From an uncultured Ruminococcus sp. (GTDB lineage Bacteria; Bacillota; Clostridia; Oscillospirales; Acutalibacteraceae), in the NCBI GenBank assembly GCA_902773265.1, contig CACYDZ010000278.1, positions 1-10,210 on the forward strand: a DNA stretch of 10,210 nt, given 5' to 3'. The notes under the pieces were generated by a model. That model did no database searches. It was not told where the DNA came from and saw only the letters and a program-made list of their open reading frames with translations. Positions within the stretch are counted from its first letter, which is position 1; every line of letters begins with the position of its first letter. The position numbers were made by a program, and so were the translations under genes. Below are positions 1 through 10,210 of this stretch, piece after piece.

Positions 1-166
1 AGTTTTTGTCGAACTTTTTTCAAAAAGTTCGTGGGGTCAAGGGGCAAAGCCCCTTGTGGGATTTTTAAGGGCAAAGCCCTTAAACTCCCCAGAAAAATCC
101 AAAATCTGCGTAAGCAGATTTTGACAATCATTATTTGACTTTTATCACTCAGGCAGAATTTTTTTT
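1..166 (+). repeat. Four-hairpin dispersed intergenic element, copy 1 (left end may be cut by the window)
   Basis: Copy in the forward orientation. Hairpin 1 is at 10-31 (CGAACTTTT / AAAAGTTCG), hairpin 2 at 38-56 (CAAGGGGC / GCCCCTTG, loop AAA), hairpin 3 at 64-84 (core AAGGGC / GCCCTT, loop AAA), and hairpin 4 at 101-122 (AAAATCTGC / GCAGATTTT, loop GTAA). GGATTTTT (59-66) can also pair with AAAAATCC (93-100), enclosing hairpin 3. The outer end at about 144-166 matches the outer ends of copies 3 and 4 and contains the rnhB stop codon and last codons. The bases that differ from other copies are paired changes that keep the stems. Identified by comparison within the window; the family name is unknown. 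Confidence 0.9.
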
Positions 167-747: not shown

Positions 748-769
748 AGTCATTCTCCGTTTGTCATAT

Positions 770-907
770 TGTCAAAATTTGCTTACGCAAATTTTGTTTG
801 AATTTTTATCCATTAAAGGGCTTCGCCCTTTAAAATCCCATCAGGGGCTTTGCCCCTGAACCCCACCACTTTTGAAAAAGTGGACAAAACTTTTCATTGT
901 CATAGCT
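770..907 (-). repeat. Four-hairpin dispersed element, copy 2 (reverse orientation)
   Basis: Lies between the end of rbgA and the start of rnhB. On the plus strand the order is hairpin 4 (774-795, loop TTAC, i.e. GTAA on the minus strand), hairpin 3 (813-833, loop TTC), hairpin 2 (841-859), hairpin 1 (866-883, CCACTTTT arm), then the shared tail ending in TGTCATAGCT. The outer extension beyond hairpin 4 seen in copies 1, 3 and 4 is absent or diverged. The outer helix around hairpin 3 survives with a G-T wobble. The element occupies most of the 176-bp gap, so rnhB is either read through it or has an unrecognised promoter here. Confidence 0.9.
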
Positions 908-923
908 AAACTTGACCGATAAT

Positions 924-3767: not shown

Positions 3768-3827
3768 AAAAATCGAATGAGCAATTCATTTTCAATCCGA
3801 GTGGTTGAAAATGAATTGCTCATTCGA
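3768..3827 (-). terminator. 23-bp perfect hairpin followed by U-tract, strong intrinsic terminator
   Basis: The arms at 3773-3795 and 3805-3827 are perfectly complementary over 23 bp, with a 9-nt loop. On the minus strand the stem is followed by TCGA then five T residues (3772-3768). The orientation fits termination of transcripts coming from the TSCPD gene and repeat copy 3, insulating the yabP operon. A perfect stem this long is unusual for a terminator. Confidence 0.65.
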
Positions 3828-3956
3828 ATCAAATATATTATCAAAAGGGAGATGAAAAAATCTTATAATCGTTTTCAATAGCTATATTATAGACTAATTT
3901 TTTGACTAAATTATTAATTACGATTGAACTTTGCATGAAATTTTTACCTTATCCGG

Positions 3957-4135
3957 AAAAATTCTGCCTGAGTGGTTGATAAACAAGTTATGGTTGTCAA
4001 AATTTGCTTACGCAAATTTTGGATTTTTATGGGGAGTTAAAGGGCGTTGCCCTTTAAAATCCTATCAGGGGCTTTGCCCCTGAACCCCACAACTTTTTGA
4101 AAAAAGTTGACAAAAACTTTTCAGTTGTCATAGCC
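3957..4135 (-). repeat. Four-hairpin dispersed element, copy 3 (reverse orientation, most complete)
   Basis: Plus-strand order: outer motif TTCTGCCTGAGTGGTTGATA (3962-3981), hairpin 4 (3999-4020), hairpin 3 (about 4036-4058, loop GTT), hairpin 2 (4065-4083), hairpin 1 (4090-4109, CAACTTTT arm), and tail ending TGTCATAGCC. GGATTTT (4021-4027) and AAAATCC (4057-4062 region) form the enclosing helix. It begins 30-40 bp after the stop of the TSCPD gene. Compared with copies 2 and 4, hairpin 1 has an A-T pair where they have C-G, a compensated change. Confidence 0.9.
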
Positions 4136-4168
4136 ATAAGTTCGTTATCATTTTTCGGTAGGGAAAAT

Positions 4169-7063: not shown

Positions 7064-7699
7064 TTACTCATTTCTCATGAATACCGCAATATTGTCACCA
7101 TCTCTGTCGGTGAGGATATCTTTTGTTTCGTCAAAGACAAAGTTGCCGATTTCTCCGTTGATATCAGATACATAGGACAAAATCTCTCCGTTGAATGAAT
7201 AACGCCCTGTTCTTTCAAAATTATTATTGTTTACCGAGAATGTACCATCAATATTAAAAGTGTAGACAATAGTTGTTCTGGGGGAGATATGTCTGCCGTT
7301 GCGTTCATAGTAAGCGAGTGTCCAACTGCCTGCAACTGTTTCATTGTCTGAAGATGGAGAACTTTCCTCTTCGGTAGGAAGTTGTGTAGGCGGAGCGGTA
7401 GGTATTTCTGTAGGAGGGGGTGTTGTGATAGGTATTTCTGTAGGAGGGGGTGTTGTGATAGGTTCTTCTATGATGGTATAGAAAGTATTGTCTTCCGGAG
7501 GAATTTCCGGTGTCTGAGTAGGAGGTTCTGTAGGAGGTTGAGTAGGGGGAGGAGCTTGTGTAGGAGGAAGAGTAGGGGGTTGTGTAGGAATTTGAGTAGG
7601 AGGTTGTGTAGGTATATCATCAGTTGATGGCGAATTACACCCCGTTGCACTCAATGTCATTATAGATACAGCACAAAATAACAAAAGCAGTTTTTTCAT
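7064..7699 (-). CDS. Pro/Thr-rich lipoprotein with small C-terminal beta domain
   Basis: Predicted membrane-anchored lipoprotein of 211 residues; function unknown. The signal peptide MKKLLLLFCAVSIMTL leads to lipobox SATGC, with the lipidated cysteine at 21. Residues 28-110 form a stiff linker of PPTQ/PPTE/IPTQ repeats, including a perfect tandem ITTPPPTEIP (81-100). The C-terminal domain (about 123-210), from GSWTLAYYERNG through TYTF-like VYTFNIDGTFSV and GRYSFNGEILSYV, has the alternating pattern and GxW opening of small lipocalin-like domains found in Gram-positive lipoproteins. That fold is an inference. AGGAG lies 11 nt before ATG 7699. It has its own promoter. The amylase gene follows 137 bp downstream with a separate promoter, so a functional link is not shown. 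Confidence 0.85.
   Translation of the reverse strand: MKKLLLLFCAVSIMTLSATGCNSPSTDDIPTQPPTQIPTQPPTLPPTQAPPPTQPPTEPPTQTPEIPPEDNTFYTIIEEPITTPPPTEIPITTPPPTEIPTAPPTQLPTEEESSPSSDNETVAGSWTLAYYERNGRHISPRTTIVYTFNIDGTFSVNNNNFERTGRYSFNGEILSYVSDINGEIGNFVFDETKDILTDRDGDNIAVFMRNE
7401..7460 (-). repeat. Perfect 30-bp tandem duplication inside the lipoprotein linker
   Basis: Positions 7401-7430 and 7431-7460 are identical over 30 bp, encoding ITTPPPTEIP twice. Neighbouring PPTQ-type units are diverged at the base level, so this is a recent in-frame duplication and a likely site of length variation between strains. Confidence 0.95.
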
Positions 7700-7770: not shown

Positions 7771-7856
7771 CAAATTTTGCATAAATCTGAACAAGATTAA
7801 CAAATATTTCATAACTGTTAGCAATTTGTAATTCATACTCCTACAACGGTGACAGG

Positions 7857-7883
7857 GAAAAGTTTTTGTCCACATTTTTGGAG
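7857..7883 (+). repeat. Solo fragment of the dispersed element
   Basis: AAAGTTTTTGTCCAC here repeats the start of copy 4 (from 7911) in the same orientation about 52 bp upstream. After it the second arm of hairpin 1 is lost (ATTTTTGGAG follows). It looks like a truncated or decayed end of another copy, or a partial duplication. Confidence 0.55.
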
Positions 7884-7897
7884 AAAAATCACTGATA

Positions 7898-8060
7898 GCT
7901 ATGACAACTGAAAGTTTTTGTCCACTTTTTTCAAAAAGTGGTGGGGTTCAGGGGCAAAGCCCCTGATAGGATTTTAAAGGGCAAAGCCCTTTAACTGCCC
8001 AAGAAAATCCAAAATTTGCGTACGCAAATTTTGACCTGTTTATCAACCACTCAGACAGAA
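7898..8060 (+). repeat. Four-hairpin dispersed element, copy 4 (forward orientation)
   Basis: Hairpin 1 at 7922-7941 (CCACTTTT / AAAAGTGG), hairpin 2 at 7948-7966 (TCAGGGGC / GCCCCTGA, loop AAA), hairpin 3 about 7974-7994 (loop AAA) and hairpin 4 at 8011-8032 (AAAATTTGC / GCAAATTTT, loop GTAC). GGATTTT (7969-7975) pairs with AAAATCC (8004-8010) around hairpin 3. The outer motif TATCAACCACTCAGACAGAA (8041-8060) ends 4 bp from the udg stop codon. With the promoter and solo fragment, it accounts for most of the 365-bp gap 7700-8064; nothing else is seen there. Confidence 0.92.
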
Positions 8061-8064
8061 CTTT

Positions 8065-10140: not shown

Positions 10141-10210
10141 ATAAAAATTCTTCTGCCTGAACGGTTGGAATGATTTTCTGAAATGTGTAATTTTTCATTA
10201 TAGAAAAACA

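Follow-up and report, generated by a model that had tools for sequence, protein, structure and literature searches.

A four-hairpin repeat with covarying stems in an uncultured Ruminococcus is probably a non-autonomous DNA transposon

The window, that is, the whole stretch of 10,210 nucleotides analysed here, is one whole contig of the 388-contig genome of an uncultured Ruminococcus sp. (GenBank GCA_902773265.1, contig CACYDZ010000278.1; G000 below, with G001 to G005 as the other genomes of its genus). The original prediction described four copies of a dispersed element with four stems in one order, and these were present as described, two per strand (1-166 and 7898-8060 on the forward strand, 770-907 and 3957-4135 on the reverse strand). 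The limits given were too narrow, since terminal inverted repeats lie beyond the stems in several copies; a fifth copy, beginning at 10145, was also present. The contig begins and finishes within repeat copies, as would be expected if the assembly broke at such copies. The features are as follows.

1..164, forward strand: copy 1, profile match to model positions 63-227, truncated by the contig start; hairpins 1-4 and, at about 142-158, the right terminal inverted repeat
767..913, reverse strand: copy 2, profile match to model positions 41-191; four hairpins, between rbgA and rnhB; no recognisable terminal inverted repeats
3957..4164, reverse strand: copy 3, profile match at 3957-4142, remainder from the empty-site comparison; left end shortened
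3962..3981, reverse strand: right terminal inverted repeat of copy 3, TTCTGCCTGAGTGGTTGATA as read on the forward strand
7850..7886, forward strand: broken second hairpin-1 fragment immediately 5' of copy 4 (direct repeats D7 and D10)
7893..8063, forward strand: copy 4, full-length profile match (model positions 43-224 of 229); hairpins 1-4 between the inner left linker and the right linker, followed by the right terminal inverted repeat; left terminal repeat not recognised
7922..7941, forward strand: hairpin 1 of copy 4, CCACTTTT-TTCA-AAAAGTGG; two significantly covarying pairs
7948..7966, forward strand: hairpin 2 of copy 4, TCAGGGGC-AAA-GCCCCTGA; one significant pair
7974..7994, forward strand: hairpin 3 of copy 4, TTAAAGGGC-AAA-GCCCTTTAA; one significant pair
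8010..8033, forward strand: hairpin 4 of copy 4, CAAAATTTGC-GTAC-GCAAATTTTG; paired changes, no pair beyond the null
8044..8060, forward strand: right terminal inverted repeat of copy 4, CAACCACTCAGACAGAA
10145..10210, forward strand: copy 5, model positions 3-47 at 10145-10189, truncated by the contig end; left terminal inverted repeat and left linker, nothing further; G002 has a copy at the same place

Elsewhere in the window, positions 3770-3828 form a near-perfect 59-nt palindrome that is about 90% conserved in G002 and whose loop, CCGAGTGGTTGAAAAT, resembles the terminal repeat, and a lipoprotein-like gene at 7364-7620 contains a variable Pro/Thr repeat tract.

With copy 4 as a query, we obtained at least 37 matches in its own genome, at least 23, 41, 24, and 25 in G001, G002, G003, and G005, respectively, and none in G004; these figures, which include partial matches of the self-complementary stems and are not copy numbers, are more than chance. 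Within Rfam 15 and the open-access PMC papers searched, the element is undescribed, as claimed: the Rfam matches (miRNA, snoRNA, riboswitch, and others) all stayed below threshold, none near a gathering score, and the papers gave no description of it. By simple ORF calls, copies were mostly intergenic, as 8 of the 57 with sufficient flank overlapped an ORF of at least 90 aa; the 44 copies lying between two such ORFs separated tandem (33), convergent (7), or divergent (4) pairs. Related hairpin sequence was present in the rnhB-rbgA gap of four genomes (G000, G001, G003, and G005), with G003 having it in reverse orientation, and none was seen in this gap in G004.

As single strands, copies 3 and 4 folded better than shuffled sequences on both strands (z-scores -4.5 to -6.4, 0 of 200 shuffles as good). 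Most of the paired changes listed in the original prediction were confirmed, with the exception of an A-T second pair in hairpin 1 of copy 1, where the stem is CGAAC/GTTCG and the pair therefore G-C. Likewise, the GTAA loop proposed for hairpin 4 was found in three of the four window copies, and in the wider set of 98 copies in only 46 of 86 parsed loops (12 were unparsed); GNRA loops made up 48 of the 86, others including GTAC, CAAA, GTAT, and TTAC. The TTAC class (n = 4) is the exact inverse of GTAA (n = 46).

Covariation was assessed on an alignment of 98 copies spanning hairpins 1-4 (60 from G002, 23 from G000, 9 from G001, and 6 from G003), truncated copies having been removed before the count, a filter that no G005 copy passed. 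The test was our own implementation, not R-scape itself, in which the inferred substitutions of each column were redistributed on a FastTree tree to give 20 null alignments. Values above the whole null range were obtained for four pairs, every one of them inside a drawn stem (two pairs of hairpin 1 and a single pair of each of hairpins 2 and 3), while hairpin 4 had no pair beyond the null in the 98 copies, despite 10 C-G versus 82 T-A at one pair. Stems were fully Watson-Crick in 89/98, 83/98, 84/92, and 85/93 copies for hairpins 1-4, respectively, with only 5, 6, 2, and 4 distinct perfect stems. Candidate pseudoknot pairings were also seen (GGGG/CCCC and GGATTTT/AAAATCC). Intrinsic terminators were rejected as a class, since the window contains 8 versus 7.8 in shuffles; some coincide with hairpins 2 and 4.

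Covariation is normally taken as strong evidence for a functional RNA, yet here it is found in what is probably a mobile DNA repeat. The hairpin cassette could be an RNA element (a cis-regulator, an insulator, or a small RNA) selected for its predicted fold, with the transposon ends as a secondary vehicle, and both the confinement of significant covariation to stems and the mostly intergenic location of the copies agree with this. We nevertheless consider it unlikely, as wobble cells in the 98-copy alignment had no clear strand bias (G-T 25 versus A-C 11, where the raw sequences indicate that 10 of the 25 G-T cells are artefacts of column trimming), the loops vary and one class is the inverse of another, copies 3 and 4 fold about equally well on either strand, and no Rfam match came near its gathering score.

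Inspection of the flanks revealed that many copies extend into TTTCYACCTGWGCGGTTG at the left and its inverse at the right. The right-end pattern CAACYGCWCAGRTRGAAAAWTTT, allowing up to two mismatches, matched 10, 13, 117, 26, 1, and 0 times in G000, G001, G002, G003, G005, and G004, respectively, whereas its reversed control gave 0 matches in all 6 same-genus genomes. A search with a core limit of 320 bp yielded 37 distinct elements with both ends and cores of 121-313 bp, four of them from a genome of another genus (G384); one element of 468 bp occurs in G003. With both ends, the element usually measures about 180-250 bp, including terminal inverted repeats of about 20 bp, and carries no transposase gene, as a MITE should, judged from the ORFs listed for two elements (L135 and L136). 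Outside the ends of the 37 elements lie AnTn runs that match as direct repeats better within an element than between elements: the longest match of an element's own pair averaged 6.73 versus 6.01 in shuffled pairs (0 of 5000 as high), and 6.58 versus 5.87 without the four G384 elements (0 of 5000 shuffles). No such rise was seen for the inverted match of these flanks among the 37 elements. The two ends of one element also agreed with each other (12.4 versus 11.6 of 15 positions in shuffled ends, 0 of 5000; 12.36 versus 11.69 without G384, 1 of 5000). There were exceptions, as the flanks of at least L137 and L144 fit inverted rather than direct AnTn. From the AnTn runs we infer a duplication of 8-9 bp. 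In addition, we found an empty site for copy 3, comparing window positions 3943..4166 with the sister genome G002 (L155, 7247..7264), which is syntenic on both sides: G002 has only ..TATTCAAAAGAATTTAATCC.. at this place, and the window has the element between AAAATTC and AAAATTT.

These ends also bear on a second possibility, namely that a RAYT (Y1) transposase mobilises the repeat as a REP/BIME-like element. The units are indeed palindromic, mostly intergenic, and in some cases arranged as head-to-head pairs with a linker (L034 and L036), as are the REP/BIME and REPIN palindromes (PMC3116915, PMC2817692). The ends, however, are terminal inverted repeats of DDE type with target duplications, and no intact Y1 transposase was seen in the genus: a RAYT gene was searched for, as the original prediction proposed, and Y1_Tnp had no match in G001, G003, G004, or G005, three of which carry the repeat, and matched only stop-bearing pieces in G000 and G002 (some of these assemblies are incomplete, G000 at 77% and G003 at 84%). 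We regard this explanation as highly improbable. In six loci (L022, L023, L026, L034, L044, and L045) an alternative left module like GGCTCACTTCGTTCGGATTGTTTATC replaces the left terminal repeat, and in several cases this module sits between two head-to-head units.

An exact scan of a named genome collection located a long form of the end in 26 stretches, including Lachnospiraceae and other Clostridia, in several cases around unrelated interiors, and in a Gracilibacteraceae locus (L268) the end adjoins a 409-aa protein. The nearest NCBIfam models are ISKra4 (82.1 of 205 bits) and ISLre2 (70.6 of 200 bits); since it scores under both cut-offs, we term it a relative of these groups rather than a member. 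It has 2072 homologues at an E-value of 0.001, in 18 of which, as aligned, D45, D115, and E230 are invariant and could, from the alignment, form the catalytic D, D, E. Two named MAGs (L268 and L272) have the same end adjoining the transposase, and in L265 the left end precedes MKVRFVAEIVDDNGKSVKA, which by eye resembles the N-terminus of P0109. Among 198 relatives of the window genome, G002 alone has a homologue (48% identity), a gene that is truncated by the contig edge and is followed by CAACCGCACAGGTGGAA, beginning 4 nt past the stop codon. G002 is also the richest in ends, with 95 of the 134 found at up to one mismatch (8 in G000, 7 in G001, 24 in G003, and 0 in G004 and G005). G000, G001, G003, G004, and G005 yielded no such transposase, nor did G384, which has 12 ends, and the end-carrying genomes that do have it number 2 of 18, both being sources of the query or of the fragment already seen. 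Nor did we see an autonomous copy that was uncut and had both ends. Two candidates for such an element were discarded: a 1451-bp end pair at G002:C1, a region holding two MITE copies where the longest ORF is by eye a metallophosphoesterase, and a 3216-bp end pair in Schaedlerella, with no transposase among its ORFs read and no P0001 homologue in that genome (G479). Among viral contigs, the end had 0 exact matches.

According to PMC3942029, ISLre2 and several ISKra4 members target sites upstream of sigma-A promoters; the spacing expected of a p-MULT (ISLre2/ISKra4) insertion is 13-17 bp upstream of the promoter. We found a promoter-like site (at least 10 of 12 positions) within 75 nt of 10 of 61 right ends versus 1.2 in shuffles, with 4 of 52 versus 0.9 for left ends and 2 of 19 versus 0.3 for unassigned ends; a -35 element starting 13-26 nt out was present at 5 of 61 right ends (0.3 in shuffles) and 2 of 52 left ends (0.3). 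These sites are enriched but occur at few ends, so most insertions do not show them. Relative to the account in PMC3942029, the likeness to ISLre2/ISKra4 comprises the nearest models with conserved D, D, E and, as a candidate parallel confined to a minority of right ends, the promoter-like sites; the differences comprise scores short of either curated cut-off, no such site at 51 of 61 right ends, and the lack of a transposase gene in the element itself.

From the terminal repeats, the empty site, and the end shared with the DDE transposase gene of G002, the only relative with the gene and the richest in ends, we conclude that the repeats are probably MITEs, non-autonomous DNA transposons with four hairpins as cargo, and that a separate transposase probably moves them. 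Of the classes originally put forward, the MITE-like one is thus supported: the repeat has terminal inverted repeats, outer AnTn direct repeats, and a high copy number, one copy has an empty site, and its end recurs at a transposase gene. The REP/RAYT class is not supported, and a structured RNA is not demonstrated by paired changes alone. The ISLre2/ISKra4-related transposase, which gives the repeat a probable mover, would act on the MITE in trans, targeting AAAATTTT-like sites and generating an 8-9 bp duplication on insertion. RUP elements are moved in trans by an insertion sequence, and BOX elements are modular. Both occur in Streptococcus pneumoniae as short, interspersed repeats of many copies that form extensive secondary structure (PMC3049150), and, by that description, differ from the present repeat in host and in its four ordered hairpins inside the ends.

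The ends are not always present. Around the best DNA matches of 76 hairpin-similar copies, the strict end pattern was found on both sides in 2, on one side in 27, and on neither in 38, the remaining 9 being cut on one side with no end on the other; copies with neither end made up 14/24 in G000, 21/29 in G002, 2/12 in G001, and 1/11 in G003. In G000 and G002, profile matches frequently terminate right after hairpin 4. As many hairpin copies have no recognisable ends, the cassette may spread by another route too. The terminal inverted repeat was present in 17 of 398 genomes, and in other genera the same ends enclose other interiors. In three loci from G349 and another MAG (L254, L278, and L279), for example, the enclosed interior is a different one of 187 bp with CATTCCGAACGAAGTGAGG and occurs in both orientations.

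The hairpins also occur outside the genus and resemble an apparently undescribed multi-hairpin family of many related gut bacteria. Hairpins 1-2 with their linkers matched 49 of 398 genomes, in 26 of the 135 genera of the bacterial family, and form the start of a 170-nt five-hairpin element in other genera. A covariance model of this relative (R1) matched 72 of 250 genomes in 49 of 135 genera, with at least 2 matches in 53 of the 72 genomes and at least 11 in 28; it also matched G000, G001, and G002, and had no match in G004. None of the 14 loci scanned had an Rfam family near its gathering score. In 8 sequences, 26 of 55 predicted pairs had changed on both sides, and this, together with the conserved linkers and the breadth of genera, speaks for selection on an RNA fold. 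In G218, a genome of the same family (L317-L324), 8 of 9 copies of the five-hairpin element lie between direct repeats of 24-34 bp, which vary by locus and by eye resemble terminator hairpins, and the element ends are CAG..CTG. The scores of own pairs were 16-31 versus a mean of 11.3 (sd 2.9, maximum 45) for other pairs. Such a long duplication recalls the IS1202 group, for which PMC10132070 gives 16-28 bp.

The cassette might then be a separate mobile unit, inserted into or captured by MITEs of different kinds, which we consider possible but doubtful. It would account for the copies without terminal inverted repeats, for the relative within other ends in G218, and for the wider occurrence of R1 than of the terminal repeat. 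Against it, no empty site was established for TIR-less copies at the two sites examined (L012 and L025), and several such copies retain end remnants by eye. If the repeats are MITEs, as we favour, most copies without ends would have decayed, and the interior would be a four-hairpin cassette, the local version of the family-wide element. More tentatively, we suggest a family-wide transferable hairpin cassette that rides on unrelated transposon ends, with p-MULT-type MITE ends in one case and other ends in G218. In the window's genus, short AT target duplications would stand beside the p-MULT-type ends, and in G218 the element would perhaps lie within intrinsic terminators, with a further copy of the whole terminator hairpin at its flank. 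Such a cassette, if real, would make insertions harmless and have its stems renewed in place by allele exchange.

Finally, we compared insertions common to G000 and G002. L009/L153 and L016/L181 were matched on both sides and L012/L291 on the left only; L010/L195, L025/L295, and L171/L197 were too rearranged and were left out of the count. The flanks of these orthologous insertions are 84-94% identical, whereas the hairpins differ and are paired or nearly so in both genomes, indicating that stems change in situ. For hairpin 1, the alleles were CCAC/GTGG versus CGAAC/GTTCG and CCAC/GTGG versus AAGCC/GGCTT, and hairpin alleles were drawn from a small shared set. Whole paired stem alleles are replaced, with few mismatched intermediates seen, and T-A/A-T flips (51 versus 39) left just 2 mismatched cells. 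Alleles of hairpins 1, 3, and 4 were not significantly associated, the two pairs inside hairpin 1 were linked, and hairpins 1 and 2 showed a weak association in G002 and in all 98 copies (p 0.006-0.048) and none in G000.

With stems replaced as whole alleles, paired changes alone do not show an RNA element, and templated copying or exchange between copies fits the change in situ better than RNA selection, given the lack of clear wobble asymmetry and the free loops. In the MITE that we propose, paired changes would most simply arise at the DNA level, with hairpins templating their own correction and hairpin alleles being exchanged from copy to copy, and such an origin of compensatory changes can be tested inside one genus. 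Multi-base paired stem changes and an inverse loop class also characterise the maintenance of hairpins by template switching (PMC8794818), which is published for RNA genes and applied here by inference. Selection on pairing may act too, as compensated changes would look alike, and selection for intact stems, e.g., insulating neighbouring genes, may add to the DNA-level processes. Recent transfer is suggested by one insertion locus common to G002 and G001 (L033/L164), which was 96-98% identical where other compared stretches were near 70%; an internal part is missing from the G001 copy.
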